A stretch of DNA of 64,000 nucleotides from Histomonas meleagridis. Its lineage: Eukaryota > Parabasalia > Tritrichomonadida > Dientamoebidae. Location of the stretch: contig WSYJ01000151.1 of NCBI GenBank assembly GCA_020186115.1, positions 372,001 through 436,000 on the forward strand, given 5' to 3'. This document shows positions 2,372 through 57,732 of the stretch, in pieces (positions within the stretch are counted from its first letter, which is position 1; each line of letters opens with the position of its first letter). Both the position numbers and the translations under genes were made by a program. The notes beneath the pieces were generated by a model. It saw nothing but the letters and a program-made list of their open reading frames with translations. It had not been told where the DNA came from and did not search any database.

Positions 2372-2518
2372 TTGGCTTTGAAATGTTCTCAAACTAAAAG
2401 GGTGCCCCAATTCTTCAGGCTTCCATTCAAGTTGAATATTCGAGAACTCCCCATTCCTTCAAAATGCAAGCAATTAATTGAGCTGTACAATAAATACTAT
2501 GATGATTTTTATTCTGAA

Positions 2519-5500
2519 ATGGTTCGAATGGGTAATTCAGCTCTTTCTGAATATGTTGATAAATACATTCAACTACTTACAACAATGTCAAAGTCTTTAG
2601 AAAAGGAAGATAAGTGCAGAGCTGGTATTGGAGTTGTATCATTGCATTCCTTTGGGTATCCTAATTTTGAACAATTGACACATGTGTTTGACAGAATTAT
2701 TCCACAATCTGACCGTGAGTGTGTAAAGTTTACAAGTTGGTGTGCAGGAAAACTTATTTGTCACCCACGTGAAGAGCAATTTCATTATATTTCACATTTA
2801 TTCAAGAGAATTCTTGGGTGGATTCGTGCCCATGGCAGAAGAGAAAGGTATTTAGCTGCAATAAATTTGATTCAATCCCTAACATTAAATGCAGGAAGTT
2901 ACATGGTAATATATTTACAAACTTTAAAGGCTGAAGCATGGAGGATGTTATCACATCCGTCACATCAAGTTCTAAAAGACGCCGCCAAGTGTTATAGTAC
3001 GTTTACCCAAGCAGTTATGCGATATTCAAGAAATCATTTACACTCATATTTAACCTATATAATGAGTATTTGTGATGGTCTTTTAGGATTCAAAAGTCCT
3101 ACCAAGGATTATGCTGCTCTTTTAATTATCAAATCCATTAGCCAATTAAATTTAAATTATATTGTAACAGGTGTTGATCGAATTTCAGCTGTTATTTTAA
3201 ACGTATATAAAAGGTCAAGTACTCCATTGATCAAAAGTCTTGCAATATGTACTCTATCACAACTTTCTATGTATCGACCAGATTACTTTGTTGACAATAT
3301 CGTTGACAAAATATTTGACAGTTTTTCTGAACTTATTTTGGATTTTGACCATGACATTGTGAAACCGTTAATTTTATTTTGCCAGACGATACCGGACTAT
3401 GTATTGAAACGAATTGAATCCTATACAAAAATTGTGCTCAATTTATTCAAGGAGAACTTATTTAAATCATGTTTTCTTTTATTGCAGACATTAATTCAAA
3501 CATTTCCTGATTATTTCTTCAAGAATAATATCAATCATAAGTTATTAAATGTATTACCAGCAAATTTTTCGATTCATTATAGTCGATTTTTTATCTCATA
3601 TTTTGAAATTGCGCAAAAATATCAAAAAGATATAACTAAAGATGAATTATTTAAAGGTTTAATCAAACGAATAATTGAAGAACTTCATAAAAATCATTTA
3701 TATCCACCATTAAAATTAATTGCACATTTACCAAAGTCATTATTAAAAGAGAAAGGCGAATTAATAAAAGAAATATTACCATTGTTTTCGAATAATCCAA
3801 AAACGAAACCATATACAGTTGAAATTACTAAAGCTTTTTTCAATATATCAATTTCGAGTCATGTTATAACGCATGATGAAATATATACCAAAATAATATT
3901 TGTAGCATTATATGAAGAAACTGCAATAAATCGATGTCGGATATTACGTATTTTAGAGAAGAATTGTACAAAAGAAATTGCAACTAATGAACATTTAAAC
4001 ACATTACGCGCATTTATAAACGATGAATCATATTCAGTACGGAAAATTATATTTAATATATATCGAAATATATCGAAATATAATCCAATTCATGTGTTAT
4101 ATATAACAAGAGAATCATTAATGGCAAATATATTTAATCTAAAGAAATCAGGAATTCGACAAAAGGCACAAATCGCATCGATTTTACCCGATTTAATTAA
4201 GGCTTCAATATCATCCATTAATTTATATTCCGAATTATTAATGAACATTATTTTAAAGTCATTTAAAAAAGCGAATGAAATAAATTTTATAAATTTTCTA
4301 GAACAAAATTCACAAATATTTTATTTGGTTGGATTAGTTAATTGTATTCCATTTATTGCCGAATTTGATCCAGATAAAATCCGGAAAAACATTGATCAAT
4401 TAATAACATATTTTTGTGATCATTTAATACCAACAGAACATCGATTATTAATATTATCGATATTAAATTCATTTATATTTATATTATCACCTCCATGCAT
4501 AGATATAAATATTCGAGCTAAAGTACCATTGATATTATTAGTATGTACAAAGTTATTATCAACAATTAATTCAAGAAAAGCTAAAACTGGAATATTAAAA
4601 GTTATTGGTATAATTGGAGAAATAGAAGTACATCAAAAAACAATTTATAAGTTTAATAATAATTTCCAACAAGATGATATGGATGAAGAATTAACACGAC
4701 AATTCTTTAGGCCTCATAGAGATAATGAACAAGAAATTGATGAGATACAATTATTCGATCCAGTACAAGTTCAATATTATTATATATCTATTGTAGCTAA
4801 TTCTTTATTTGAAGTATTTTCGGATGAAAAATCTTCTGATTTACGATTTGAAACAATTCAAATCCTTGTGAAAGTATTATCGAATCCAAAGAATTCAACT
4901 TTACGATATTTCGATACATTTGTAAATAAATTATTATCAATTTTAGAAGATGAAAATGTAACAAAGATTCAATTATATTTACCCGAATTTTGTAAATTAA
5001 TTCGTATGTCAGGTAATAATATAATACCATTTGTAGATCGTACATTACGATTTATTAAGTTAAAGTTATGTAATGAATTAATAATATATTTCATGGATTT
5101 GATTTTAGCGTATATCGATTCATTAGGTAATAGTTTTTCTTTATATATATCGAATTTAATTTATATCCTTTTAGGACTTTTGGATACATGGAAAACTAAA
5201 GATGTACAAATATGTCGGAAAATTCTCGAAATATTTTCTAAAATTGGAATTTCAACAATTAACATACGATTTCTAATTGTTTTACAAGTATGTGAAACTA
5301 TTATATGTTTAAATACAATACCTTTTATCCGAATAATATCATTAAATACATTAAAAATATTCGTCGAAAATTTCGATGTTTCTGATTATATACCAAATAT
5401 ATTACGATCGATTTCATTTTCATTCCAATATTTTAATGATGATCAACAAACTTATGAAGAAACTAAACAACTTTTATATGCGTTAATTTTATATAATAAG

Positions 5501-8500
5501 AAATGGTTAATACCAAATCTTAAACAAAGTAATAATGAAATAAATTTGTTTCAAATTAATAATCCCGAAATATCGGAAATATTACAAAAGAATTATACTA
5601 AAAATGAGTTAAAAAATTTAATTAAAAAATCTGGAATATATTTCATACAACAAAATATCGAAAAATTCGATCGACCATATACATTTTCAGAAGATTCATT
5701 ATTTGCACGTATTATTACACCTAATTTTGGCTTAGGTAAATATTATGAAATTTGGGCATCTAATTTCATATTAACATTTATAATGTTAAGCCCTATAAAT
5801 TGTATACGAATTTGTTATTCAATAGCAACATCGAATTATTCATTTGCATTATCGATTTTTAATGCGGCGTTTTATTCATGTTGGAAATTATTAACAGAAA
5901 AAGGGAAATTCTTAATAACATCGGCATTAAATGAGTTTTTTTCATCAGAAGAAATATATTATAATAATAAAATAGGTAAAGACTTATTAAATATGTTATT
6001 CTTTATGCATAAAATGTCTTTTCCTATAAACATTGACTTTAAAGTATTAATTAAAGCTTGTTTAAATAAAGGTTATCCTGGATTTGCATTAAGATTATTA
6101 CAAGAGAAATTCGATAAAAAACAAATTAAAAACGAAGATATAATACAATTAATTGATGTGTTATTAGAAATTAATAATTATTCGGACGCTTTAACTATCT
6201 TTAAAATGTTTATTAAGGGTCAACCTGATATAAATTTATTAATAAAGTTAAAGTTATGGGATAAAGCTTTAATGACACAAAAAGAAAAATTTAATGATCC
6301 GTTTTCTAAACAAAAAACTTTTGCACCATTTATTAGATCATTAATAAAATTAGAACAATATGAAGATGTAATGAAACATTATGACTTCTTCCAAAAAGTT
6401 GATATATCAGAGAAGAAAAGAACATCCGAATATTTTGCAGAAGCAGCTTTAAAGCTTCAACGATGGGAAGATTTAAATAATATATTAAATTATTCGCCAA
6501 ATAATAATATTAAATGTAATATCTTTTTATTGTTAAATTTATTACATAATAAAAAATTCGATCAAATTGATAATATAATTGAGAAAAGTTATCGATTATT
6601 ATCGAATTTACCAATAAAATTTTTAGCGGAAGAACAAAAAATACAAAAAGAAATTATATATTATTCACAACAATTATTCGAAATATCAGAAATGAAAAAA
6701 TGGTTCGAAACTAATGATGAAAATCTTAAAAAGAAAATTCAAGAAAATTGGGAAAAACGAATTAAAACAGCGCCTCGTGATTATGACTTTTGGAATCGAA
6801 TTATTACAAATCGTGTTCATGTAACTAAAATATATGATGAATCATTAATAAAATTATTCCAATTAACAAATAATAATAAATCATATTTAAACTCATTTCG
6901 AATATTATTTCCTAATTTCGATATGACAAAATCAAATTATATTGAACGAATTTGTTATATTTTAGTCGAACATAATTTAGGAAGTTATAAAAAGGCATTA
7001 AATGATTTAGAAAATATATTAAATGTAATACCTAATTGTTCTTTAAAGAAACAATGCGTTTCATTATATGTCGATTGGGAAATCGAATTAAATGATTCGA
7101 AAGAATCTTATCAACATCTTTATAACTCATTAAATTCATTATTCGAATCAAGTTTCAAGAAAACTTCTTTTTGGAAATCGAAAACATTAAATAATTGTTC
7201 TGATATTAATAATAATAGTGTACAATTTAAAGGGAATTATTTCAAGAAAATTAAACCTTATTCATCATTAACATTTGTCTTTCCTAAAAACATCTTAAAA
7301 AATCTATATGATGAAAATGATGAAGAACTTTTACGTAAATGGTCATTAATTAATATCGAAATGATGAATCATGACCTAAAGAACTCCAAAGTTTATGTTT
7401 TTAAAGCATTTCAAGCTTTATTAAAATGTTGTATCATATCACATTCATTTCCAGATATGGTACAATTATTAAATTTATTTTTTGAACATACGAAAGAAAT
7501 TTTAGAATTTAATCAAAGATCAGAAGAACTTTTTGATAATTTCACTCCGACTATGTTATTAAATGTATCACCGCAATTATTAATACAATTATCACATCCA
7601 ATAACTAAAATCTCGAATTTAATACATCAAATTATATTAAAACTTTTACCTGAACATTATCATTCTTTAATATTCTCATTAATAGTAATCCAAAACTCAC
7701 AAAATAAAGAACGTGCTAAAGCATCACAAGACATATTATTAAAATTCCATCGAATTTGTCCTGAGCAACATAAAGAAGTAATGTTAATTAAGCGCTCATT
7801 AATATATGCAGCTAATACATGGTATGAATTAACATTAAATCAAATCTATAATGCAAAAGATCAATATCAAAACAATGAATATAAAAACTTTCGAAACATT
7901 TTATTGAATTTATATCGTGAATATCAAGAGCCTCATTGTCAATTACATTATCAATTTTTACAAGAATTTAATTTAGAAATCGAACAATTAAATGTTTTAT
8001 TAAATGAAAAACAATCAACAAAAATTAATGAATCATTATATAAATGGTGTGAAACAATGGAAGATTATGTGTCAAACATAACAAAGAATATACAATTAAT
8101 ACAACTTTCTTCAATATCTTCAACGTTATGTAATAAGTCTAGTTTCTATTTGGCAGTGTTCGGTACTTATAAACCTGGAAAACAAATTATTCGAATTAAA
8201 TATTTCATTGGTCAAATCGGTATTTATATGTCGAAACAACAACCAAAAGAAATTATAGTACGTGGTGAAGATGGTAAATTTTATCAATATCTTCTTAAGG
8301 GTCATGAAGACTTACGATTAGATGAAAGAATTATGCAGTTCTTTAAGTTAATTAATTCATATATAAAACAAAATAATAATTTTAAGTCAAATATAATTTC
8401 AACGACGAACGTTATCCCGATTTCTTTGAGACACGGTTTGGTTCAATGGTTTACGGAAACGAATACTTTACAAAGCGTAATTGAACAATACCGAAAAATC

Positions 8501-9307
8501 ATGAAAAGAAATCCACATGAAGAAATAGACTTAATGTTAAAATATTCGATTGATAGATATGACGGACTTTTACCAATACAAAAGATGCAAATAATGGAAA
8601 GAATTTTTAATGAAATTCCAAATGATGATTTAAGTAATTTCTTTTGGATTAAAGCATCTACTACAGATATTTGGTGGAAACGCACAGAAACTTTTATTAT
8701 TTCTTGTGCAATGACTTCTATTGTTGGATATGTTATAGGTTTAGGTGATCGACATCCTTCGAATTTATTAATAGATGAACTATTTGGGAGAATAATTCAC
8801 ATCGATTTCGGTGATTGTTTTGAAAGAGCTGCAAAAAGAGATAGGCTTCCTGAGGTTGTTCCTTTTAGGTTAACGAGAATGATGGTAAAGGCTATGGGTA
8901 TTGCAGGGATTAATGGGCTTTATAAGTCGATATTTATAAATATGTCAAAAATTTTGAGAGAAAATAAAAATGTCCTTATGATGGTGTTGGCATTGTTTGT
9001 CCATGAACCATTAGCTGACCCTGATGACGACTTCACTTACGAAAAGAAAATAATTAGAACAAGTACATCAATGAGTGTACTCTCTGCGGGATTCGATGAA
9101 AATAATGTTTTGAGTTCTGATTTCGTAAATAGAAAATATATTTCGAATACGGAATTAAGAAAAATTGTAAAAAGTAAATTAAATGGAACAGAGTTCGGTA
9201 CGAAAAATCCTTTGTCTGTGGAACAACAGGCAGAAAGATTAATAGAAATGGCAACAAGTACTTATAACTTGGCAAAAATGTACCACGGATGGTGTCCGTA
9301 TTGGTAA
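2519..9307 (+). CDS. TOR: TOR serine/threonine kinase (PIKK family)
   Basis: This is a full-length TOR of about 2262 residues from the first in-frame ATG. The frame is open without an ATG back to 2369, so an upstream start needs an unseen exon or a base error near 2365-2372. Order: long HEAT-repeat solenoid (~1-1150), FAT region (~1200-1750), FRB (~1760-1860), kinase (~1880-2180) with LLKGHEDLRLDERIMQ, catalytic GLGDRHPSN at ~2073 and HIDFGD at ~2093, and a C-terminal FATC ending YHGWCPYW. GHEDLR.DER and the GWCP[FY]W tail are diagnostic of TOR rather than ATM/ATR. The segment AVFGTYKPGKQIIRI matches the TOR AVPGTYDP block. Family role: the TORC1/TORC2 catalytic subunit controlling growth. 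The FRB position matching human Ser2035 reads Ile (codon at 7844), which in other TORs gives rapamycin resistance. Frame intact with no introns visible. Confidence 0.93.
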   Translation: MVRMGNSALSEYVDKYIQLLTTMSKSLEKEDKCRAGIGVVSLHSFGYPNFEQLTHVFDRIIPQSDRECVKFTSWCAGKLICHPREEQFHYISHLFKRILGWIRAHGRRERYLAAINLIQSLTLNAGSYMVIYLQTLKAEAWRMLSHPSHQVLKDAAKCYSTFTQAVMRYSRNHLHSYLTYIMSICDGLLGFKSPTKDYAALLIIKSISQLNLNYIVTGVDRISAVILNVYKRSSTPLIKSLAICTLSQLSMYRPDYFVDNIVDKIFDSFSELILDFDHDIVKPLILFCQTIPDYVLKRIESYTKIVLNLFKENLFKSCFLLLQTLIQTFPDYFFKNNINHKLLNVLPANFSIHYSRFFISYFEIAQKYQKDITKDELFKGLIKRIIEELHKNHLYPPLKLIAHLPKSLLKEKGELIKEILPLFSNNPKTKPYTVEITKAFFNISISSHVITHDEIYTKIIFVALYEETAINRCRILRILEKNCTKEIATNEHLNTLRAFINDESYSVRKIIFNIYRNISKYNPIHVLYITRESLMANIFNLKKSGIRQKAQIASILPDLIKASISSINLYSELLMNIILKSFKKANEINFINFLEQNSQIFYLVGLVNCIPFIAEFDPDKIRKNIDQLITYFCDHLIPTEHRLLILSILNSFIFILSPPCIDINIRAKVPLILLVCTKLLSTINSRKAKTGILKVIGIIGEIEVHQKTIYKFNNNFQQDDMDEELTRQFFRPHRDNEQEIDEIQLFDPVQVQYYYISIVANSLFEVFSDEKSSDLRFETIQILVKVLSNPKNSTLRYFDTFVNKLLSILEDENVTKIQLYLPEFCKLIRMSGNNIIPFVDRTLRFIKLKLCNELIIYFMDLILAYIDSLGNSFSLYISNLIYILLGLLDTWKTKDVQICRKILEIFSKIGISTINIRFLIVLQVCETIICLNTIPFIRIISLNTLKIFVENFDVSDYIPNILRSISFSFQYFNDDQQTYEETKQLLYALILYNKKWLIPNLKQSNNEINLFQINNPEISEILQKNYTKNELKNLIKKSGIYFIQQNIEKFDRPYTFSEDSLFARIITPNFGLGKYYEIWASNFILTFIMLSPINCIRICYSIATSNYSFALSIFNAAFYSCWKLLTEKGKFLITSALNEFFSSEEIYYNNKIGKDLLNMLFFMHKMSFPINIDFKVLIKACLNKGYPGFALRLLQEKFDKKQIKNEDIIQLIDVLLEINNYSDALTIFKMFIKGQPDINLLIKLKLWDKALMTQKEKFNDPFSKQKTFAPFIRSLIKLEQYEDVMKHYDFFQKVDISEKKRTSEYFAEAALKLQRWEDLNNILNYSPNNNIKCNIFLLLNLLHNKKFDQIDNIIEKSYRLLSNLPIKFLAEEQKIQKEIIYYSQQLFEISEMKKWFETNDENLKKKIQENWEKRIKTAPRDYDFWNRIITNRVHVTKIYDESLIKLFQLTNNNKSYLNSFRILFPNFDMTKSNYIERICYILVEHNLGSYKKALNDLENILNVIPNCSLKKQCVSLYVDWEIELNDSKESYQHLYNSLNSLFESSFKKTSFWKSKTLNNCSDINNNSVQFKGNYFKKIKPYSSLTFVFPKNILKNLYDENDEELLRKWSLINIEMMNHDLKNSKVYVFKAFQALLKCCIISHSFPDMVQLLNLFFEHTKEILEFNQRSEELFDNFTPTMLLNVSPQLLIQLSHPITKISNLIHQIILKLLPEHYHSLIFSLIVIQNSQNKERAKASQDILLKFHRICPEQHKEVMLIKRSLIYAANTWYELTLNQIYNAKDQYQNNEYKNFRNILLNLYREYQEPHCQLHYQFLQEFNLEIEQLNVLLNEKQSTKINESLYKWCETMEDYVSNITKNIQLIQLSSISSTLCNKSSFYLAVFGTYKPGKQIIRIKYFIGQIGIYMSKQQPKEIIVRGEDGKFYQYLLKGHEDLRLDERIMQFFKLINSYIKQNNNFKSNIISTTNVIPISLRHGLVQWFTETNTLQSVIEQYRKIMKRNPHEEIDLMLKYSIDRYDGLLPIQKMQIMERIFNEIPNDDLSNFFWIKASTTDIWWKRTETFIISCAMTSIVGYVIGLGDRHPSNLLIDELFGRIIHIDFGDCFERAAKRDRLPEVVPFRLTRMMVKAMGIAGINGLYKSIFINMSKILRENKNVLMMVLALFVHEPLADPDDDFTYEKKIIRTSTSMSVLSAGFDENNVLSSDFVNRKYISNTELRKIVKSKLNGTEFGTKNPLSVEQQAERLIEMATSTYNLAKMYHGWCPYW

Positions 9308-10012: not shown

Positions 10013-12953
10013 ATGGGTGGAAGTGAAAGCCATACAAAAATAATTTGCGAAGAAAACATACAAATGTTACAAGATTTAGAAGAAATTATTTTTGATTTAG
10101 ATGAGAAAAATATTGATCGATTGGTTGAATCTTCATTAAATTATTTTTCAGTAGAATTTCCATATTCTTTCTATCATATCATTTGCAGAATTGTTTATTC
10201 ATATTTTGTTTCAACAAGCTATGAAGAATTATGTTTTAAGTATTTAAAATCTATTGAAAAAAAGTCAAGTTATAATATCATCAATATTTTTACTCAGTTT
10301 TTATTAAAAATTAATAGTCAAGAATCAAATTATCTACTCGAAAAAATGATTGAAGATGAATTAATTGATCCAAATATTATTCAACATGAAAACAATCCAT
10401 ATTTTATACATAATTTTACAGAAAATATTTTACAGCGATCTAAAAGACTTATATATCAAATTGAAGAAAAATTTCAAAAAAATGGTTTTGAACTTCACAA
10501 AAAGTACGTCAAAGAAGGACATAATCCAAATGAAATTGCAAGAATAATTCGAAATGATGAAATAGAAAAACTTCAAGAGATATCATCACAAACAAATTTT
10601 GATTTTAACCAAACAATTAAGCCATCACTTTATGAAAAGTGTTCATTCATTAATAAAGAAGATGTTACATTAATTGCTTATGCAGCATTTTTTTCAGCAG
10701 AAAAATGTTTTAAATATTTACTTATAAATGGCTCTGATATAGAAAACACAGGAAAATATGCTGTTGCGAGTGGAAATGAAGAAATTATTCACTTATGTGA
10801 ACAAAATCATTCATCTTTTCAAAATGCATATGAAACAGCAATTGAATTTCATCGAAATGATATCTTTAAATATATTTATGAAAAGAAATTCGAAGAAATT
10901 TATAATTTAGAAGTATTAGGAAAAGAATGTATTTTACATGATAATTTTAATCTTTTTTCATTTTTAGTAAAAGAAGGAATGAAAATTAATAATACTTTTA
11001 TCAATACCTCAATCATAACAGGAAATATATTTATTTTTCAATGTTTCCCAAAAAAAATTCAATAAATTTTTTGGAAATTTCAGGTTTCTCTGGTAATAAA
11101 GAATTTTATAATTACCTTATTAAACATAAATATATTAATTTAAAACAAAATGTTTGAAAATTTTATTGAAAATTTTACAAAATAATTTAATATTTTAAAA
11201 CATAATTTAGCGTTTTTTAAAAATATTTGCATTATTCTTAAATGCATCTCAAAGAGGTTATTTAGAAATCGTTCAATTACTTCTTGAACAAGAAGGAATT
11301 GATATTAATGCTAAAAATATTTTTTTGTTTTATATAATATTTATTTTAATAATTTTGGATTTCAAAATAATATTTGGAAATTATTTAAATTATTTTGGAC
11401 AGCACTTATTTGTGCATCTAGAGAAGGTCATACAGAAATAGTTAAATTACTTCTTGAACAAGAAGGAATTGATATTAATGCTGATGATATTTATTTGTTT
11501 TATTTGAAATTTATTTTAATAATTTTATATTTCAAAATAATATAAGGAAATTATTTAAATTATTTAGAACAGCACTTCTGATAGCATCTGAATATGGTCA
11601 TACAGAAACAGTTAAATTTCTTCTTGAACAAGAAGGAATTGATATTAATGCTAAAAATATTTATTTGTTTTATTTAAAATTTATTTTAATAATTTGATAT
11701 TTCAAAATAATATTTGGAAATTATTTATAATATTTAATACAGCACTTATGTTTTCATCTTATAATGGTCATACAGAAATAGTCAGATTACTTCTTGAACA
11801 AAAAGGAATTGATATTAATGCTAAAAATATTTATTTATTTTATTTAAAACTTATTTTAATAATTTTTAATTTCAAAATAATATTTGGAAATTATTTAAAT
11901 TATTTAAAACAGCACTTATGTTGGCATCTGCAAATGGTCATACAGAAATAGTTAAATTTCTTCTTGAACAAGAAGGAATTGATATTAATGCTAAAGATAT
12001 TTATTTGTTTTATATAATATTTAATTTGATAAATTAAAATTTCAATAATATATTTGGAAATTATATAAATTATTTAGAACAGCACTTATTGAAGCATCCT
12101 ATGAATGTCATACAGAAATATTTAAATTACTTCTTGAACAAGAAGGAATTGATATTAATGCTAAAGGTATTTATTTGTTTTATTTAATATTTATTTTAAT
12201 AATTTCATATTTCAAAATAATAATTGGAAATTATTTAAATTATTTGATACAGCACTTATATCTGCATCTTCAAAAGGATATATAGAAACAGTTAAATTAC
12301 TTCTTGAACAAGAAGGAATTGATATTAATGCTAAAGGTATTTATTTTTTTTTATTTATTATCTGTTTTAATAATTTAATATTCCAAAATAATATTTGGAA
12401 ATTGTTTAAATTATTTAATACAGCACTTATTTGTGCATCTAGAGAAGGTCATACAGAAACAGTTAAATTACTTCTTGAACAAGAAGGAATTGATATTAAT
12501 GCTAAAAATATTTATTTGTTATATTTTATATTTATTTTAATAATTTTGGATTTCAAAATAATATTTGGAAATTATTTAAATTATTTTGGACAGCACTTAT
12601 TTGTGCATCTAGAGTAGGTCATACAGAAATAGTTAAATTACTTCTTGAACAAGAAGGAATTGATATTAATGCTGATGATATTTATTTGTTTTATTTTATA
12701 TTTATTTTAATAATTTTGGATTTCAAAATAATATTTGGAAATTATTTAAATTATTTTATACAGCACTTATTTATGCATCTTGGAATGGTTATACAGAAAT
12801 AGTTAAATTACTTCTTGAACAAGAAGGAATTGATATTAATGCTAAAGATATTTATTTGTTTTATTTTATATTTATTTTAATAATTTTTAATTTCAAAATA
12901 ATATTTGGAAATTATTTAAATTATTTTATACAGAACTTATGATGGCATCTTGA
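10013..12953 (+). CDS. DUF3447-type ankyrin protein, split by regular spacers
   Basis: The start is ATG at 10013 (MGGSES); the frame upstream begins only with TTG. The N-terminal part (to ~11065) has the helical DUF3447-type module seen in its paralogues here (LHKKYVKEGHNPNEIARIIR, then NDEIEKLQE, then CEQNHSSF, then EFHRNDIFKYIYE). The frame then breaks at an A8 run near 11050; one more A would continue it through NKEFYNYLIKHKYINLKQN to 11151. From there the gene continues as ten 99-nt ankyrin units separated by 71-nt AT-rich spacers (one of 72), with a last partial unit ending in TGA at 12951-12953. With all spacers removed the frame is continuous. Without removal every unit ends in a stop or frameshift. 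Ankyrin arrays bind protein partners; the partner is unknown. Whether the spacers are spliced is inference. Confidence 0.6.
11223..12953 (+). repeat. Ankyrin cassette array: 99-nt coding unit + 71-nt spacer
   Basis: Units begin at 11223, 11393, 11563, 11733, 11903, 12073, 12243, 12414, 12584, 12754 and (partial) 12924. Each runs 99 nt from the Phe-x-Thr codons to the Ile codon of NAKxI. The gaps are 71 nt, except 12342-12413 (72). The unit encodes TAL..AS..GHTEIVKLLLEQ and then GIDINAK. All ten full units are free of stops. Codon changes cluster at repeat positions just before TAL, after TAL and after AS, i.e. the classic exposed ankyrin positions. Spacers have no shared frame and end in a conserved block aaattatttaaatta. 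Confidence 0.85.
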
Positions 12954-17408: not shown

Positions 17409-19060
17409 TCATTTTGAAAACAATAATTTTAGTTTTGTTTTCCCTGAAACGTTATTTGTTTGCGTGGCTAGATCATTTTTTATTATATCTGAATTTTTGT
17501 TCTCGTTTACATCATAAAATTGAAATTTATTTTCATTTTCGAGCTGCTCATCTGAAATTAATGTATAATTTGGTAAAAAGGTTGTGTAGTCTTTATCATT
17601 TTCTGATCCATATAACCAGTTAATTGTTACAGAACCTTTTGCACGAAGTAATTTAACTATTTCTGTATGACCATTTGAATATGCATATTCATATGCTGAT
17701 TTAAATATGTTGAATAATTCCCGAACAGTATATTTTAACAAAAAATTCTCAATATCAATGCAAAATAAAAAAATCAAATTACATATTATTTAAATAAATG
17801 CTAAATAAAAGCAATAAACATCTTTTGTATCAACATCAATTCCTTCTTGTGCAAGAAGTATTTTAACAAGTTTTATGTTACCAGTTTTACATGCCCAAAT
17901 AAGTGGTGTATCAAATAATTTAAATAATCTTCAAATATTATTTATAAAATTATTAATAAAAGAAACGCCAAATACTTGACAGAAATATACCTAGTGTTGA
18001 TATCAATTTCTTTCTGCTTTAAAAGATATTTAAAAAGTTCCAAATTTTCTGATTTTGTAGAGCTAATCAAGAGATTTTTTGGTATTCGATTGGTTTGAAG
18101 AAAATATTTAACAAGATATATATTTCCGTTTGTTGCTGATTCATTTATAATGTTATTATTTATTTTCATGCCCATCTTTTCTAAAAATAAAAGAATTTCA
18201 TAATTATAATACCTTACGCACTTTTCTCCTAATTCTTCTAATTTATTAATTTTTTCTATTTTATTTTCATAAATATATTTAAAGATATCATTTCGATGAA
18301 ATTCAATTGCAGCTTCATATGCACCTTCAAATGTTGAATGATTTTGTTCACATAAATGAATGATTTCTTCATTTCCACCTGCAACTACAAATCTACCTGT
18401 ATTTTTAATATTTGCGTCATTCATAAGTAAATATTTAAAACAATTAATTGATCCAAAAAATGCTGCGAAATCAATTAAAGTAACTAATTTTGTCTATCAT
18501 AATCTGTTGGATTAACATATGAACATCTTTCATAAAGTGATGGTTCAATTTTTTGATTATAATCAAAATCATTTTGTGATGATATTTCTTGAAGTTTTTC
18601 TATTTTATCATATCTAATTATTTTTGCAATTTTATTTGTATTTACTCCTTCTTTAATATATTTCTTATGAAGTTTGAAATCATTATTTGAAAGCTCTTTA
18701 TATGTTTTATTCGTATGACTTAAATAATTATATTTAATTAATTTGTAATGCATAAAGTATTCTGAATTCATATTTTCAGTAATATTTTTATTGATTACAT
18801 TTCGATTTATCATTTTCTAAATAATGAATGTATCTGTCAGCTGAATTCCATTTTGCACAAAATGAAGAATAAACTAACTGACTAACAATTAAAATAAATG
18901 AGTATGGAAAATTAAAATCATATAATTTTATTGTTTGGTCAATTGCAAGATTAAAGTTCTCTTTATATAAATTAATTATGATTTGTTCAAGATTAATTTC
19001 GATATATTGAGGCTCATTTCCATCACCATTTTTTTTAGAATTTATTTCGCCATTTAACAT
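17409..19060 (-). pseudogene. DUF3447-type ankyrin gene, decayed
   Basis: Reading 19060 to 17409 on the minus strand gives the paralogue order in broken pieces: N-terminus MLNGEINSKKNGDGNE... to ~18790; a jump that lacks about 50 residues seen in the paralogues and changes frame; LHKKYIKEG.N.NKIAKIIR; a frameshift near 18490 before LIDFAAFFGS; CEQNHSTF and EFHRNDIFKYIYE; then ankyrin units. The last two units are separated by spacers of 78 nt (17916-17993) and 111 nt (17706-17816) at the same codon boundary used in the intact genes. The terminal exon (17409-17705) carries one ankyrin unit and a unique ~70-residue hydrophilic tail. The two coding breaks argue for a pseudogene, although base errors could mimic this. 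Confidence 0.7.
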
Positions 19061-27507: not shown

Positions 27508-30500
27508 TTAGATTTTTTCACGGAGTAATTTTACTATTTTTGTATAACTTTTTTGTTTTGCTATTTGAATTGCAGTCAAATATTATTAAAACATATTTCA
27601 AATTATTAAAACATATTTCAAATTATTAAAACATATTTCAAATTATTAAAACATATATTAAATTATTCGAATGAATAGTTTTTGCATTAACATCAATTCC
27701 TTTATCTAAAAGTAATTTTACTATTTCTATATTATTATTTCTAACTGCTATATGAAGTGCTGTTTCAAATTATTAAAACATATTTCAAAATATTAAAACA
27801 TATTTCAAATTATTCAAATGAATATTAAATTATTCGAATTAATAGTTTTTGCGTTAATATCAATTCCTTTATCTAAAAGTAATTTTACAATTTCTATATT
27901 ATTATTTTCAACTGCTATATGAAGTGCTGTTTCAAATTATTAAAACATATATAAAACTATTAAAACATATATAAAACTATTAAAACATATATAAAACTAT
28001 TAAAACATATATAAAACTATTAAATCATATATAAAACTATTAAAACATATTCTAAATTATTAAAACAGATATCAAATTATTAAAACATATTTCAAATTAT
28101 TAAAACATATATAAAACTATTAAAACATATTTCAAATTATTAAAACATATTTCAAATTATTAAAATATATTATAAATTATTAAAATATATTATAAATTAT
28201 TAAAACATATATTAAATTATTATAACATATTCTAAATTATTAAAATATATTATAAATTATTTGAATGAATATATTTTGCATTAACATCAATTCCTTTATC
28301 TAAAAGTAATTTTACTATTTCTATATTATTATTTCTAACTGCTATATGAAGTGCTGTTTCAAATTATTAAAACATATTTCAAATGATTAAAACATATTAT
28401 AAATTATTAAAACAGATATCAAATTATTAAAACATATATAAAACTATTAAATCATATATAAAACTATTAAAACATATTCTAAATTATTAAAACAGATATC
28501 AAATTATTAAAACATATATAAAACTATTAAAACATATATAAAACTATTAAAACATATTTCAAATGATTAAAACATATTATAAATTATTAAAACAGATCCA
28601 AAATTATTAAAACATATTTCAAATTATTAAAACATATTTCAAATTATTAAAACATATTTCAAATTATTAAAATATATTATAAATTATTAAAACATATATT
28701 AAATTATTATAACATATTCTAAATTATTTGAATGAATATATTTTGCATTAACATCAATTCCTTTATCTAAAAGTAATTTTACTATTTCTATATTATTATT
28801 TCTAACTGCTATATGAAGTGCTGTTTCAAATTATTAAAACATATTTCAAATGATTAAAACATATTATAAATTATTAAAACAGATATCAAATTATTAAAAC
28901 ATATTTCAAATTATTAAAACATATTTCAAATTATTAAAACATATTCTAAATTATTAAAGCAGATCCAAAATTAATAAAACATATTTCAAATTATTAAAAC
29001 ATATATCAAATTATTAAAGCAGATCCAAAATTATTAAAACATATTTCAAATTATTAAAACATATATAAAATTATTAAAACATATTATAAATTATTAAAAC
29101 ATATTCTAAATTATTAAAACATATTCTAAATTATTAAAACATATTTCAAATTATTCAAATGAATATTTTTTGCATTAACATCGATTCCTTCTTTATCTAA
29201 AAGTAATTTTACTATTTCTATATTATTATTTTCAACAGCTATATGAAGTGCTGTTTCAAATTATTAAAACATATTTCAAATTATTAAAACATATAACAAA
29301 TTATTATAATATATTTCAAATTATTATAACATATATCAAATTATTATAACATATATCAAATTATTATAACATATATCAAATTATTATAACATATATCAAA
29401 TTATTATAACATATATCAAATTATTATAACATATATCAAATTATTAAAACATATTCTAAATTATTAAAACATATATTAAATTATTATAACATATTCTAAA
29501 TTATTTGAATGAATAATTTTTGCATTAACATCAATTCCTTTTTGTTCCAAAACATATTTCACAAGTTCAACATATCCTGATTCTGAAGCAAATGGCAAAA
29601 TATTTTTTGGAGTTTGGTTATTTTGAAGGAAATATTGAACGAGATATAAATTTCCATTCCTTGCTGATTCATTTATATTATAAGCATTAACATTAATTCC
29701 TTTTTCTTCCAAAAATGCTAAAATTTCATAATTATCTTTTTTGATACAAAAACTTACTAAATCATTTGTATCTTCAGACATTTTCAATATTGATTGTGTT
29801 TTTTCTAAATTATTTTCATAAAGATATTTAAAAATATCATTTCGATGAAATTCAATTGCTGTTTCATATGCATTATCAAATGATGAATGATTTTGTTCGC
29901 ATAAATAAATGATTTCAAGATTTCCACCAGCAACTGCATATTTACCTGTGTTATCTATTTTAGAACCATTCATAAGTAAATATTTAAAACATTTAGTTGA
30001 CCCAAAAAATGCTGCATAATCAATTAATGTAACATTATCTTTATTAATGAATGAACATCTTTCATAAAGTGATGGCTCAATTTTCTGGTTAAAATCAAAG
30101 TTTGTTTGTGATGACATTTCTTGAAGTTTTTCTATTTCATCATTTCGAATTATTTTTGCAATTTCATTTGGATTATGTGCTTCTTTAATTAATTTCTTAT
30201 GAAGCTCCCATTCATTCCTCGAAAGTTCTTCATAATTTTTTTGAATATATTCAGTAAATTTATAATCCCCTAATTCGTTAATTATTTCATTTGGCATGTA
30301 TTGCACAAAATATCCTTGAGAAGCAATCGAGTTTTTTATATTTTTAATGATTTTTTTATCAAGTAAATTATCTTCAATCATTTCTGCAAGAAGATAACAT
30401 GATTCTTGTGTATTTTTACAAACAAGGAAATGTCCATATATATCAAAAATGTCAATTTCTTTATGAATGTTCATTTCTATTTTTTTGATTTCTTTAAGAA

Positions 30501-30726
30501 AATCCAAATATAAATTAATATCTTTCATTCCCATGATAGCAATTGCATATGTAATCCTAACAATAATTAAATTAAAAGATAATGGAAAAATATTATCAAA
30601 TTTACTTATGATTGATTTTGAAGTTTGAGTAATGTTTTCTTTGTTTAAATTGATTATTAAATTCTTGATATATATTAATTTTTCCAATTCGTTTTCATGG
30701 GTTTTGCTTTTTGCTTGAGATTCCAT
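27508..30726 (-). CDS. DUF3447-type ankyrin protein split by minisatellite-filled spacers
   Basis: Start ATG at 30726 (MESQAKSKTHENELEKL); the frame upstream has only TTG. The N-terminal exon 29512-30726 encodes the DUF3447-type region and first ankyrin units, ending GIDVNAKII. Five units follow on the minus strand at 29162-29260, 28735-28830, 28268-28363, 27841-27936 and 27674-27769 (TALHIAV.NNNIEIVKLLLD), then a terminal unit 27508-27582 (TAIQIAKQKSYTKIVKLL) that ends in TAA. Spacers are 251, 331, 371, 331, 71 and 91 nt. Joined at the Ile/Phe-x-Thr boundary, all units share one open frame; unspliced, the frame stops at 29476. No GT...AG pair preserves frame. The partner and process served are unknown. 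Splicing is inferred. Confidence 0.6.
27583..29511. repeat. 20-bp minisatellite filling ankyrin-gene spacers
   Basis: The unit aaattattaaaacatatttc and close variants (atataaaact, atattctaaatt, acagatatcaaatt) repeat with strict 20-bp steps between ankyrin units. On the coding strand it reads aataatttgaaatatgtttt, nearly a copy of the spacer-exon junction aataatttgaaacagcactt, which suggests the array grew by duplication of the 3' junction. One stretch (29280-29440) is a homogeneous sub-array of attataacatatatcaaatt. Confidence 0.9.
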
Positions 30727-30916
30727 ACGAAATGCCACTTTTAGTATTAAATACAATATGTAGTTTACATAATCGTTTTCATCTCAAATACAATTCAAAG
30801 CTTTGAAACAAACTGAACACAAATCAAAGTGTTCATTTCAGGAATGAGCAATTTAAAAATCTTTGTTAAATTATTGATTGTGTAAAAATATATTTGAAAA
30901 TTATTCAAACAAATAT

Positions 30917-33014: not shown

Positions 33015-33283
33015 AATATCCTCCTTTTCAATATCAATTCCTTCTTGTTCAAGAAGGATTTTAGCAATTTCCACTTGGTAATGAGTTGATGCACGCATAA
33101 GAGCTGTATAAAATAATTTGAATGTTATCCATTTATTATTTATAAATATCAAATTTTAAAAATGTAATTTTTATTTTAAATATAAATATTTTTGTCATTG
33201 ATATTAATTCCTTTTTGGGCAAGGAGTAATTGAACTATATCTAATTTACCATTAATTGTTGCAAACATAAGTGCTGTGTTAAA
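33015..33283 (-). pseudogene. Two orphan ankyrin units with a 71-nt spacer
   Basis: Units at 33185-33283 (NTALMFATINGKLDIVQLLL, then AQKGI) and 33015-33113 (YTALMRASTHYQVEIAKILL, then EQEGI) are each exactly 99 nt and open. The gap 33114-33184 is exactly 71 nt although its sequence differs from the spacers at 11-13 kb. Further upstream (33284-33470) a third unit is eroded. No N-terminal exon was found, so this is a relic array or a piece of a fragmented gene. Confidence 0.6.
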
Positions 33284-34744: not shown

Positions 34745-37294
34745 AATGTCGAGTTCCGAGACGGGTGAGCAATGCTCACAAGAAAAGTCAGAAAATATAG
34801 TGATTAGTTACCTAATCATAAGCGACAGTAACATTTTCAAAAAATACAAAAATTATCAATTCGATGATAAGATTAAAATTTTTTTTTCCTGCCAACTATT
34901 CTTAGTAAAATTATTAATTCATCCCAGTTCTACACCATTATAGTCAAAAAATTTGATATGATTCAATTATATCAAAATTTATCTGCAATTCATCACTTTC
35001 TGTTACATCATAATTCATTATTAAATGGAAGACCAAATCAAAACAAAAAATGGTCAAATGATGAAATTTTTTGTTTATTATTCAAACTCGTATTAACAAT
35101 TAACAGATCAAATATTAAAATACCGACTAGATCAGAAAATGCATGTAGAACTAAAATTTCTTCGATAATTAATTTAGTGAACAACACATCTTTATTCGAA
35201 TGTTACCCTATTTCATATGAAATTCAAAGTAATTATGATGAGGATAGAGTTGATAATGATGAAACTCAAAGTAATCACGATGAGGATAGAGTTGATAATA
35301 ATGAAATTCAAGTTAATGCATATGAAATCGAAAGTATAAAATTTATATACACAGCACACCAGAAAAAAAGAAAGATTAGGGAAAAAGTTCAAAAAAATTG
35401 TTAAAGAATAAAATGGAATTTATGAGATCTCAGAAAAAAACAAAAAATATTAAACAAAATCCAATAATTAAGTTAGCCTTAAACGACTTTAGTGATAAAA
35501 ATAAAATACGAAAATATGATGATGATTTTGAACATGTAATTCATCAGTGTCGAAATGTTTTAGGACTTGGTCGTCATAAAGTTTATGATGATAGAACAAA
35601 AGAGTATTGGATCAATGAATATATTTTAGGTTCTAAATCTTTTGGATTTTACCGTAATTCATTTCAAGGTCCATCAATAAATTCAATTAAAAAATGGATA
35701 AAGGAATCATTCATACCATCTTTTGAAGAATTTATAAATATTGATAATATAATTAGAATTTATTTATTTTGGAAAAATCTCTATAACATCGACACTACAA
35801 CTGCAACCCTCTCTATTGATGCAATGAAAGTCGATGAGGATTTGATTTTTAATAAAAATGGAAATGTTACAGGTATATTAGAACCAATTGTTTTAAAATA
35901 TAAACCTGATGACTATCGTCGAGACATTAATCTTTATAAAGAATTATGGAAAGAAAACGTAGACAAAAATAATCTTATTGGAGGAATGTTTGTTTTTACA
36001 ATTTGTCCTCACTCTGCAACACCATCCTTCCCTATTCATGTATATCTTTCAAATAATGGTGCAGCAGATGATAAAGTTGATAAATAAATAGAAGAAATTT
36101 GTATAAAATTGAAAGCTGTTAATTTAAATATTACAATAATATCAACTGACTCTGATACCCATTATAAAAGCAAATTTGGAGAACAATTCAATGAAATATC
36201 AAAAGAATTTACAAATAATCCATATTTGGACGAATTTTCAATTCCTACACAAACATATTCGAATGATATGGCCCATTTGTTAAAAAGGGCCAGAAAAAGA
36301 CTTGTTAAAAAAAACAATTTATTTGTATGTAAAAATGATCAAATAAATTTTCAAAAGAAACATCAAAATGTTAATGTAGTTTATATTGATTTAATTAAGA
36401 GTTTTGATATTACGCTTACTGATTGTTTTTTCAAAAATAGTAGTCACGATGCAATGGATGACTTTTATCAGAATGCAATTTTTAATGGAAGAACATTAGA
36501 AAATGCTATTCATAACAAACATTGGGCTTCAGTTTTATATCTCTTGCCAATGACATGCATGAATAGGATTTTACGAGATAAAACTGTGTGTAGGAGAGAG
36601 AGAACAATTTGAACATATGTTGGTTTATTTATCATGTACTTTTATTGGGCAGGATTGAAGTTACAAGGGTCCTTACAAAACAAAGAGTTGAAAAAAGAAA
36701 ACTTTATTTCTATTATCTCAATGAATTTTTGTGTTGATTGTTTTAATGCTTTTTTTGCTGTTTTATTAGGGATTAGGAATATAAAAGACAAATGTAGTTT
36801 ATCTAGAATAGGAACCATTAAATCAGAACATTTTTTTGCACTTCTTAGAAATAAAGCAGGAAATAAGCAAACCATAGAATCCATAAAACGGGCATTTGAT
36901 CGCATTGTTATTTCTAGAAAATACAATTGTGAATGAAAGAATTTCAAGAAGAATGTTTGAAACTGGGATATTGGAAGAAGGAAATTTTGTACTTACAAAC
37001 GAAGAAGTTTGGAATTGTAAAGTATTTTCACTGAAGTTATTATATTTATGTGGACAAGTTTTTCCAAGAGAAAGTGCTGCTTATAATCTGTTACAAGATG
37101 TTGATAACGAATCTATAAACTCAAATTTTAATGAGTGGGATGCTAGTTTAATTGATAGCCTAACTAAAGAAGTGACATTTACTAATGGGAATGCAAATCA
37201 AAATTGGATTCTGACTGCTTCAAAACACAGATTGACCAATAAAGTTGGAAGAAACATTGCTTCCAGGTATTATACGAAATTAAACAGTAAGTAA
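34745..37294 (+). pseudogene. Transposase-like gene (RNase H-like core suspected), multiply broken
   Basis: One ~800-codon gene can be followed through several lesions: MSSSETGEQCSQ (34745) with a shift near 34943; the frame to 35404; an A7-run shift near 35390 into LLKNKMEFMRSQKK; in-frame TAA at 36085-36087; in-frame TGA at 36610-36612; and a shift near 36925 into the last frame ending 37294. Acidic residues in conserved-looking settings (LSIDAMKVDEDLIF, IISTDSDTHYKSKFGEQ, RIGTIKSEHFFALLR) suggest a DDE/RNase H-fold transposase of the P-element/hAT grade, but I do not recognise the exact family. A short acidic repeat (SNYDEDRVDNDETQ then SNHDEDRVDNNEIQ) lies near residue 150. Confidence 0.55.
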
Positions 37295-41734: not shown

Positions 41735-42085
41735 ATTATTTGAAACTGCACTTATTTTAAAGCGTCTAAAAATAACCATATCAAAATAGTTAAAATACTT
41801 CTGAATTGCAAATATATTAATATTAATTCTAAAAGCGTTTATTTGTTTCATTTAATATTTATTTTAATAATTTTATATCGAAATAATATTTGGAAATTAT
41901 TTAAATTATTTGAAACAGCACTTATTTTAGCATCTAGATGTGGTTTTTTAGAAATAGTTAAATTACTTTCTGAACAATAAGGAATTGATATTAATGCTAA
42001 ATCTATTTATTTGTTTTATTTAATATTTATTTTAATAATTTTCTATTTCAAAATAATATTTGGAAATTATTTAAATTATTTAAAA
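41735..42085 (+). pseudogene. Decayed ankyrin cassette pair, 170-bp period
   Basis: Two copies of the unit start (ttgaaact/cagcacttattt) lie 170 bases apart (41741 and 41911), the same period as the array at 11-13 kb. Unit one has lost frame after a few codons; unit two has LASRCGFLEIVKLLSEQ followed by TAA. The spacers still resemble those at 11-13 kb. Confidence 0.65.
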
Positions 42086-55440: not shown

Positions 55441-56435
55441 AAATTCATTTGTAAGTGATTACTTATATATAAATTTTCTAATTGAGGGTGTAGTTCTGGA
55501 AATTTGGCAAAAGCATCAAATCATTTGATGAAAAAAAAAGAAATCAAATAAATATCTATATCATTTATATCAAATTTCCCATGCTCAAGAAGTAATTTCA
55601 CGATTTCAGTATGACCTTGTGAAGATGCTTTCATAAGTGCTGTTTCAAATAATTTAGATAATTTTCAAAAACTATTTTGAAATTTTAAATTATTAAAATA
55701 AATTTTAGATTAAACAAATAAATATTTCTACCATTAATATCAATTCATTCCTGTTCAAGAAAGTATTTTACAATTTCAACATTACCTGATTTTGTAGAGT
55801 ATATTAAAAAATTTGTATTTTGATTATTTATATGAAGATATTTAATAAGGAATAAATTTCCTATTTTTATTTCTTTTACAATATTTTTATCATCATATTG
55901 GATTCCTTCTCCTTCCAAAAATAATAAAAGTTCGTAATTACCACTAGTAATAGAGATTTTTTGTAAATAATTAAGCATTTTTTTCTCAGCTTGGATTGAT
56001 TTATCAATAATTTTGTTTTCATAAAGATATTTAAATATATCATTTTGATGATATTTAATTGCAGTTTTATCTACATCTTCTAATGATGAATGATTTTGTT
56101 CACAAAAATGAAATATTTCTAGATGGCTCAATAATTTTATTAAAATCAAAGTTTGTTTGTGATGACATTTCTTGAAGTTTTTCGATTTCATCATTACGAA
56201 TGATTTTTGCAATTTCATTCGGATTATGTCCTTCTTTAACATATTGTTTATGGAGTTCAAAATCATTCTTTGATAGTTTTTCATAATTTTTAATAAAAGC
56301 ATTATTAAATATATTATATGGATACATTCTTTTATTTTCCTCTTCTGATTTATAGTGTGCAAAATATTTTGTTCCCATATTTTTGATGATGTTTTTATCT
56401 ATTAAATTTTCTGTAATCATTTCATTAATAATATA

Positions 56436-57732
56436 GGGTGTCCAACCCCAAGTGTAGCATCTCATTATACAAATAAAATTTAAATGAACTAAAATAATGA
56501 TTAGAATGTTTACTTGATATACTCTCCTTTGGTATGTATTACTTGTTCCAATCTCCTTTCCCATTCTTCGAAAACCCGTTTTAACATATCGGTTGGAATT
56601 TGTTGTAAAATATCAGTTATACATTTTTTTACCTCCTTTCTTGATTCGTATAACTGACCTTCCATTTTATTTTTGATATAGCCAAATAGGAAGGAGTCTG
56701 ATGGTGCTATATCTGGTGAATAAGGAGGATGAGGTGCTCTTTTAAGACCTTTAATATTCATTATATTAGTTGTGTGCTTCGATATGTGAGGACGTGCATT
56801 ATCGGCATGGACGGTTAATCTTCTTCCTTCATTATCTAGATATCCCCCATTTAATTTTGAAAGTTCCTTAATAATATTATTTGCATAATACTTCGAATTA
56901 AATGTTTCGCCTTTTGGAAGAAAGTTAATAACCTTTATTCCGCTTGGATTCCAAAAAGTTGTCAGCATAATTTTTTTATCTGTTAAAACCTTACCTGGAC
57001 GTGTTTGAGGCTGACTTCCGATGGGTATCCATTGTTGAAATAGATAATATGAATATTCAAACCAAGATTCGTCTCCTGTAACGAAATATATATAATTGTT
57101 ATGTTTGGCTGAATTCAGAATCTTAAAAAATGCCTTTGAGATTGTTACTTTTCGAATTTATTGTTTTTCTGAGAGACTGTGGGGAACCCACTTTAAATGC
57201 ATGCTTACATAAAAAAGCATATTTGTTAAATGATAATATACCGTACTTTTTGGAATCCTCGTAGTGTTAGCTATATAACGAACAGATGCAAATGGCTCTT
57301 CATCAAGTACATACAAAATTTTTTCATTAATGATTTTGTGTTCATCGAAATTTGCATTTGAAGTTTCCTTGTTAACGGTTTTTGATGTTTTGCAATTTCT
57401 AATATATTTTGTAATTGTTGAATATGAAATACATTGATCTTGAAGAGTCAATTTCATTTCTGTATATATTGATTTTTTATTTTTCCCTTGTAAGTGTAAG
57501 AAAATCGCAATTGATTTCTGATCGAGTTCCATTTTGAACTTTTTGAGTATTTTAAACGTATATTTTTTCCAATTTTCTATCAAAAACATTCAAATATCTC
57601 ATTATATCTAATTTTTTATGAAACTTCATATTTATAAACAATAAAATGTTATATTCATATATTATTTATATATATTTATTAATGATTATATATGCTCACA
57701 TATGGAGATGCTACACTTAGGGTTGGACACCC
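56436..57732 (-). mobile_element. mariner element, 1297 bp, TA duplication
   Basis: The 28-bp terminal inverted repeats begin GGGTGTCCAACCC and end GTGTAGCATCTC, differing at one base (position 14, C or T). TA flanks both ends (56434-56435 and 57733-57734). The length and the internal D34D transposase are typical of mariner. It sits inside the ankyrin gene. Confidence 0.95.
56510..57532 (-). pseudogene. mariner (DD34D) transposase with one in-frame stop
   Basis: Starting at MELDQKSIAIFLHLQGKN (57532; an upstream ATG is at 57589), one frame of 340 codons runs to 56510. It is interrupted only by TAA at 57158-57160, just after HLKWVPHSLSEKQ. The catalytic residues are present: TGDESWFEY, VHADNARPH, and YSPDIAPSDSFLF with 34 residues between the second and third Asp. 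The N-terminal paired HTH region is complete. A single base change away from a full frame, so recently active or a stop readthrough/assembly question. Confidence 0.9.

Follow-up and report, generated by a model that had tools for sequence, protein, structure and literature searches.

Histomonas meleagridis is a parasite of the poultry gut and belongs, with Trichomonas vaginalis, to the phylum Parabasalia. We analyzed 64,000 nucleotides (nt) of its genome (assembly GCA_020186115.1, contig WSYJ01000151.1, forward strand, positions 372,001 to 436,000; hereafter the window), in which an ankyrin gene at window positions 10,013 to 12,953 is broken, between one repeat and the next, by AT-rich elements of 17 nt that alternate with single codons. 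In the vls silent cassettes of Borrelia, tandem coding cassettes are flanked by repeats of about 17 bp that mark the cassette ends; the Histomonas gene likewise has tandem coding cassettes with repeats of about 17 bp, whereas its 17-mers split a constrained run of codons. Spliceosomal introns of Stentor coeruleus measure 15-16 nt, are mostly GU...AG and have the branch A at position 10-11, and they resemble the Histomonas elements in being tiny, near-fixed in length, AU-rich and placed between coding exons (PMC9505925). The introns of T. vaginalis, 63 of them described as active, are also short (23 nt and longer) and have extended conserved 5' and 3' motifs, with a few lying in ankyrin genes (PMC12316389). 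Nonconventional introns of euglenids and diplonemids, the ends of which pair into a stable structure, share with the elements the lack of conserved GT-AG borders (PMC6221363, PMC12621601), and microexons, described as 3-15 nt long, include in-frame single-codon exons like the isolated codons of Histomonas (PMC13149111).

The main text of the H. meleagridis genome paper, which gives 28% GC and 573 or 638 introns, does not contain the word ankyrin (PMC8529796). Among open-licence PMC papers on Histomonas or Tritrichomonas ankyrins and introns, Histomonas or Dientamoeba introns, ultra-short introns, one-codon exons, and consecutive mini-introns, we found no title or abstract describing such an arrangement.

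Interrupted ankyrin loops in the window gene

The array at 11229-12953, downstream of a DUF3447 module, comprises 10 full ankyrin units and then 1 partial unit, which reads TELMMAS followed by a stop. Gaps from the N-A-K end of a unit to the T-A-L of the following one measure 83 nt, once 84, and the reading frame shifts from unit to unit along the array, with no stop in any of the 10 cores. A preliminary description of the locus had reported the ten units, the stop inside the last partial unit, and spacers of 71 nt (once 72); all of these stand, its 71 (72) nt being our 83 (84) nt with 12 nt counted to the cores. The 71-nt spacer as a unit does not, since the gap holds three further constrained codons at 20-nt steps and four 17-nt elements. 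With the 17-mers left out, eight of the nine complete loops read as the five residues given in Table 1, and the gene with its elements removed is predicted to yield junction-crossing peptides such as NNWGWTALICASR and NKDGNTALMFSSYNGHTEIVR.

From the sequence, we consider it likely that this gene and its relatives encode DUF3447-ankyrin proteins and carry micro-introns of 17 nt, arrayed between exons of a single codon, which would be removed precisely, probably from RNA. In the proposed gene order, a long exon would be followed by an element, a one-codon exon, an element, a further one-codon exon, and so on, so that the five loop codons joining adjacent repeats (D-x-x-G-x, before T-A-L) would be separated by 17-nt elements. 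Excision of the elements with single-base precision, before or during translation, would then give canonical ankyrin repeats. The positions of the elements, their near-fixed length, their number in the genome, and the coding constraint on the isolated codons and the cores are direct observations.

A DUF3447 (PF11929) domain lies upstream of both arrays found in the window (E 1.8e-8 and 2.1e-7). In the window gene, the frame of the N-terminal part changes near 11040-11065 and the open reading frame (ORF) from 10013 ends at a stop at 11063-11065; the closest paralog (L032, 80% identity) is open across this site. The preliminary description had drawn an N-terminal exon running to 11151 and a first junction as regular as the others, and by eye the layout is indeed similar, the exon itself being broken by the stop and the frame change. 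In all, 4 of 30 N-terminal ORFs (L031, which is the window gene, L033, L035, and L047) lose the frame at roughly this site toward the end of the module, close to a run rich in A, where either decay or sequencing error would account for the loss. Judged by eye in the 27 of 30 N-terminal loci with a scripted module end, an interruption lies ahead of the first recognized unit in all but L046, which is contiguous into its first unit and interrupted after the next, and L049, where the interruption is short.

A ladder of gap lengths across the genome

The H. meleagridis assembly (43,276,120 bases in 121 contigs) was searched, and 305 distinct pairs of neighboring units were taken from 68 fetched loci plus the window. 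The gap was exactly 83 nt in 196 pairs, and 236 pairs fell on a ladder of 43, 63, 83, 103, 123, 143, 163, 203, 223, 263, 343, and 383 nt, so that most gaps equal 3+20n; 37 pairs had off-ladder gaps of 46, 66, or 86 nt, and the remainder were irregular. Such a gap consists of a single codon and n 20-nt blocks, in each of which an AT-rich element of 17 nt is joined to a codon; n is usually 4 and reaches 19. As the repeating unit is 17 nt plus one codon, gain or loss of a block changes the protein by a whole codon, and n can vary with the reading frame kept.

A genome search for further ankyrin arrays, suggested in the preliminary description, returned 4,648 places for one end-of-loop pattern (element 4 plus core, up to 3 mismatches) and 608 for the end pattern of type B, the form of the second window array, with 0 for the reversed control. 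At four elements per loop, the 4,648 places give an estimated total of about 18,600 elements. Recent tandem duplication is evident in loci L066 and L067.

Coding constraint on the isolated codons

The cut-sliding, stop-triplet, and core tests reported here are independent of the trained parse used further below. In 186 distinct type A spacers, the triplet was mostly GAT/AAT at offset 0, AAA/AAT/GAA at offset 20, TAT/GAT/AAT at offset 40, and AAA/GAA/AAT/TGG/AGA/CAA at offset 80, with GGA at offset 60 in 152 of them. Taken as codons ahead of ACA GCA CTT, these triplets spell D-x-x-G-x-T-A-L, the canonical ankyrin loop, and once the 17-mers are left out the units are ankyrin repeats of 33-34 residues with the D-x-x-G-x-T-[AP]-L loop and start. 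Of 191 distinct spacers cut at the block boundary, 164 had Gly at loop position 4 and 141 matched [DN]xxGx[TSAP]. Moved one base to the left, the cut gave counts of 164 and 136, T having become the third base; moved one base to the right it gave 13 and 12, and at every other shift from -9 to +10 it gave 0 or 1 for Gly and 0 for the motif. At offset 40, TAT occurred 46 times and TAA at most once, a contrast that favors a third base that is read over the cut one base to the left.

Stop triplets at offsets 20, 40, and 80 numbered 0, 1, and 0, against 10.9, 16.3, and 26.5 expected by column shuffling. The isolated triplet of type B held no stop in 263 cases, against 41.3 expected, with ratios of 1.00 to 1.21 at the seven other testable offsets, and 187 rows of unit cores contained 2 stops where shuffling predicts 124. 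The upstream frame carried through the spacer had 150 stops against 151.7 expected; without stop avoidance there, the 17-mers are evidently not read, and read-through of the spacer was rejected on this count. A mutation-simulation null (220 expected stops) was dropped because its consensus held a stop. The within-locus ratio of nonsynonymous to synonymous differences (pN/pS) was 0.96, a value driven by hypervariable codons that alone does not demonstrate purifying selection and was not counted as evidence for it. Core codons 5, 8, 9, and 11, which correspond to the usual ankyrin surface positions, were highly variable between units, with the framework more constant (186 distinct type A units), and loop codons x1, x2, and x4 varied as well. 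Such variable codons in core and loop would show the pattern expected of a diversifying family of binding proteins.

Length, order, and absence of the 17-nt elements

The element consensus is about RTTTWTTTNNATNATTT, AT-rich, and each of the four slots has a consensus sequence of its own, from which the spaced unit is probably of common ancestry, its codons having diversified after the arrival of the elements. With lengths of 14-20 nt allowed, 1,039 of 1,172 elements were exactly 17 nt. A parse by dynamic programming, which is not independent because these spacers also served to train it, placed 1,226 of 1,271 elements exactly between codons and returned loops of five codons in 207 of the 305 gaps; 178 of these 207 loops have Gly at position 4. 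All 12 gaps of 66 nt parsed as three elements and five codons (for example DYSGK, DDDGK, and NNYGQ, with Gly at position 4 in 10), element 1 being absent in eight, element 2 in three, and one gap being irregular. Where one element is lacking, the neighboring codons are fused. One gap of 49 nt held two elements and the loop NNYGR, and three of 103 nt had a fifth element and a sixth codon (DNNWGW is one such loop). In L067, 12 of 13 loops read DKDGR, DKDGQ, or DKDGW, the 13th (84-nt gap) parsing uncleanly, and L066 has DKDGN, DEKGN, DEDGD, and similar loops.

In L082, a long element-free ORF of at least 715 residues in the same genome, every one of 22 loops has Gly at position 4. These data on presence and absence indicate that the loops holding the elements are in other respects ordinary ankyrin loops, and that an element can be lacking with the codons unchanged. 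No element was found within unit cores in 255 recognized half-core pairs (254 at distance 0, one at 8). For another repeat family, LRR_5, elements were judged absent among the 202 matches listed, where 1 row had a stop, on the basis of frames rather than alignments. One ORF of another ankyrin subfamily, L075, has mostly contiguous loops and is interrupted in frame, in the manner of the arrays, before TALHWAAQ; this suggests that elements have spread into a gene formerly without them.

Comparison with known introns

With product-preserving shifts allowed, GT..AG ends were found in none of 367 distinct elements and in none of 1,271 parsed elements; a GT..AG 17-mer within 6 bases, changing the product, was available for 5 of the 1,271. 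AT..AC ends (U12-type) occurred in 2 of the 367, too few for the elements to form a class of that type. Across whole spacers, an in-frame GT..AG pair was found in 77 of the 196 pairs with a gap of 83 nt, at varying places, the commonest in 23. A frame-keeping, stop-free GT..AG segment is possible in 4 of 9 window gaps, at different places, in agreement with the earlier statement that no GT...AG pair is common to all spacers. A single intron using the nearest GT and ACAG was rejected, being out of frame, with ACAG merely part of the T-A codons; some paralogs have ACG GCA, ACT CCA, and others in their place.

Unlike the Stentor introns, the Histomonas elements thus have no GT..AG ends, and the exons between them would be single codons; unlike microexons, these one-codon exons would come in runs split by 17-nt elements, not by ordinary introns. 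The extended intron motifs of T. vaginalis were at chance level or absent: its extended 3' motif, ACTAACACACAG, had 3 matches in 43 Mb against 2 for the control, and GTATGT N{3,33} TAACACACAG had 0 in the genome. The 367 distinct 17-mers had a mean minimum free energy of -0.03 kcal/mol, unlike euglenid nonconventional introns, and 60 spacers of 83 nt folded no better than mononucleotide shuffles (z +0.67). An initiator-like TCAYT stood upstream of the start in 2 of 30 loci, a count that says little because several scripted starts are internal ATGs. PRPF8, a core splicing factor, is listed in an H. meleagridis proteome table (PMC10063853), and nothing points to a link between the spliceosome and the 17-nt elements.

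Weighing the explanations

Removal of the elements seems to fit no known intron kind. RNA is the likeliest level at which it would occur, with fairly good probability, and we favor, on balance, a dedicated excision system in Histomonas and at least one relative, which would recognize some twenty thousand 17-nt elements not by GT-AG ends but by a weak RTTT..ATTT signature together with their length, the 20-nt minisatellite serving as a frame-safe way to lengthen loops by codons. The near-fixed length, unusual for introns, may reflect a ruler-like mechanism.

Several points weigh against micro-intron arrays. The elements have neither a shared GT..AG nor pairing ends, so no known machine is implied, and loops of up to 20 codons in type B are unusual for ankyrins. 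Once other lengths are allowed, 133 of 1,172 elements take them, and 17 of 305 parsed loops retain a stop, the parse having been trained on the very spacers it parses. Column shuffling disregards kinship among units, and the non-codon offsets 6, 46, 48, and 49 are also low in stops (1, 3, 5, and 4 against 5.5, 14.0, 15.1, and 14.0); offsets 46, 48, and 49 fall in a part of element 3 where variants are linked, and many other offsets match expectation. A looser pattern applied to all fetched loci gave 17 contiguous loops, just 10 with Gly at position 4. No close element-free copy was found with one pattern (14 matches with 2-3 mismatches, 5 of them in L082, which is a different subfamily, the other 9 not inspected). 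Finally, the N-terminal part of the window gene carries a frame change.

The preliminary description had proposed either non-canonical short introns splitting each repeat at the same codon or a silent cassette store. By the selection evidence, intron-like spacers at a fixed site are retained from the former and the single 71-nt intron is not. A single non-canonical intron per repeat, about 71 nt long and taking out everything from the D-I-Y codons to the codon before T at once, would keep the frame for every n and leave stops in just 4 of 191 rows; it is nevertheless distinctly unlikely, as the D-I-Y-x loop left behind has no Gly and as this model fails to account for the Gly that 155 of 179 distinct spacers have at offset 60, the stop avoidance at offsets 20 and 40 and in the type B triplets, the 20-nt steps, or the units without one 17-mer. 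A store of unexpressed gene-conversion donors, or an amplified satellite of 170-bp repeats only seeming to code, is also unlikely. Cassettes flanked by near-identical repeats of 17-20 nt, the recent tandem duplication in L066 and L067, and the plain decay of some window arrays would fit it, but the isolated spacer codons show stop avoidance and a retained Gly, neither of which a store of donors would need; nonsense is avoided in cores and isolated codons alike, where mere spacer codons need no protection, and one pattern search found no element-free acceptor of close identity.

Two further explanations were weighed. Phage T4 gene 60 and byps show that a short spacer inside a gene can do without RNA processing, and ribosomes might likewise hop over each 17-nt element. 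In known bypassing the take-off codon matches the landing codon, whereas here the last three bases of the element match the preceding codon in just 29 of 1,172 cases, and tens of hops per gene would be required; we regard such translational bypassing as very improbable. Removal at the DNA level would recall the internal eliminated sequences of ciliates, which are precise, short, AT-rich, and intragenic, as the elements are. Parabasalids are not known to possess a somatic nucleus, uncut places number in the thousands in the assembly, and a search with one pattern turned up no cut version that matched closely; we regard this explanation as extremely improbable.

If micro-intron arrays are confirmed by complementary DNA (cDNA), they would constitute a class of intervening sequences of near-fixed 17 nt, without GT-AG ends and with runs of one-codon exons. 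Thousands of such loops would lie in a published genome annotated with 573 or 638 introns, and the annotation of the H. meleagridis ankyrin family would need correcting. The lower size limits of exons and introns, and non-spliceosomal removal, would become directly testable in a culturable protist, and tandem-repeat instability could alter a protein by whole codons without frameshift.

Related proteins in other organisms

Queries with the DUF3447 module and with locus L080 gave 18 related metagenome proteins whose ends were read. In 14 of these the ORF ends 2 to 13 residues past the N-x-K triplet, as in many unprocessed Histomonas ORFs, although some of these early ends could be contig ends; P0001 ends short of the triplet. 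P0023 (38% identity to L080) reads through a 66-nt interruption, giving NKIYFNDFIFQNNIWGFLKLFK and then TALMFAS. This peptide is reproduced by a back-translation of two codons, 17 nt, a codon, 17 nt, GGG, 17 nt, and a codon, in which, as one possible back-translation, the second 17-mer is identical to the Histomonas third-element consensus. In P0022 (44% identity to L080), a Gly at residue 21 past the triplet corresponds by eye to the offset-60 codon. These two proteins would imply the same 17+3 layout in other organisms. No relatives were found among the viral contigs and genome contigs searched. The Tritrichomonas proteins P0020, P0030, and P0063 have contiguous loops. The annotated end of P0020 (Tritrichomonas foetus TRFO_31288), NAKGVFKYMFYKVFIN, comes right after an ankyrin unit, as in unprocessed Histomonas ORFs, and is a possible sign of elements in Tritrichomonas.

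Features of the window

Table 1. Ankyrin-family features of the window, with positions counted from its first nucleotide
Feature	Position	Strand	Basis and remarks
N-terminal module, DUF3447 (PF11929)	10013..11062	+	Pfam E 1.8e-8; ORF; stop 11063-11065 where frame differs from closest paralog
Remaining N-terminal exon, different frame, first ankyrin-like unit NFLEISGFSGNKEFYNYLIKHKYINLKQN	11066..11151	+	Three-frame translation; closely similar peptide in L032
First junction	11152..11228	+	Read by eye; similar layout by eye in L034, L036, L037
First-junction 17-nt elements (four)	11152-11168, 11172-11188, 11192-11208, 11212-11228	+	By eye on parse model
First-junction codons	AAA 11169, AAT 11189, AGC 11209	+	By eye on parse model
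Ankyrin unit 1 core ALFLNASQRGYLEIVQLLLEQEGIDINAK	11229..11315	+	Unit scan
Interrupted loop 1, NNWGW	11316..11398	+	Codons at 11316, 11336, 11356, 11376, 11396; 17-nt elements in between
Ankyrin unit 2 core	11399..11485	+	Unit scan
Interrupted loop 2, DEYGR	11486..11568	+	17-mer cut
Ankyrin unit 3 core	11569..11655	+	Unit scan
Interrupted loop 3, NKDGN	11656..11738	+	17-mer cut
Ankyrin unit 4 core	11739..11825	+	Unit scan
Interrupted loop 4, NKLGK	11826..11908	+	17-mer cut
Ankyrin unit 5 core	11909..11995	+	Unit scan
Interrupted loop 5, DNKGR	11996..12078	+	17-mer cut
Ankyrin unit 6 core	12079..12165	+	Unit scan
Interrupted loop 6, GNHGD	12166..12248	+	17-mer cut
Ankyrin unit 7 core	12249..12335	+	Unit scan
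Interrupted loop 7, 84 nt	12336..12419	+	Four 17-mers do not fit; with other lengths allowed, element 1 is 18 nt including a nine-T run
Ankyrin unit 8 core	12420..12506	+	Unit scan
Interrupted loop 8, NYWGW	12507..12589	+	17-mer cut
Ankyrin unit 9 core	12590..12676	+	Unit scan
Interrupted loop 9, DYWGY	12677..12759	+	17-mer cut
Ankyrin unit 10 core	12760..12846	+	Unit scan
Last interrupted loop (outside scripted parse), partial unit TELMMAS, and stop	12847..12953	+	Sequence, translation
Second array (type B), 6 recognized units	27560..29604	-	Gaps 263, 343, 383, 343, 83 nt = 3+20n, n = 13, 17, 19, 17, 4
Type B internal block, ATATGTTTTAATAATTT plus codon	within 27560..29604	-	Parse
DUF3447 + ankyrin N-terminal ORF of second array	29476..30756	-	ORF, Pfam
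Decayed array fragment, 2 units, stop in one core	41747..42001	+	Between tubulin-tyrosine-ligase and histone-deacetylase genes

Arrays lie at 11, 28, 42, and 56 kb, and with the further unit pairs given below the window has at least six loci of the family. The DUF3447-ankyrin copy at 55600-56980 (-) is split by a mariner-type transposase fragment (Transposase_1, DDE_3) and has a stop inside the core of its first array unit. More ankyrin unit pairs, with gaps of 80 and 83 nt, occur at 17699-18424 and about 33020-33280, both (-). Three more junctions between ORFs in the window, at 60233-60249, 36087/36109, and 55.7-57.0 kb, showed no apparent 17-nt interruption by eye. Elsewhere in the window, an intact ORF at 2372-9307 encodes a PI3K-related kinase of 2,311 amino acids with FAT, mTOR-type, and FATC domains, and a 42-nt tandem repeat of 2.3 copies lies at 35217-35311.

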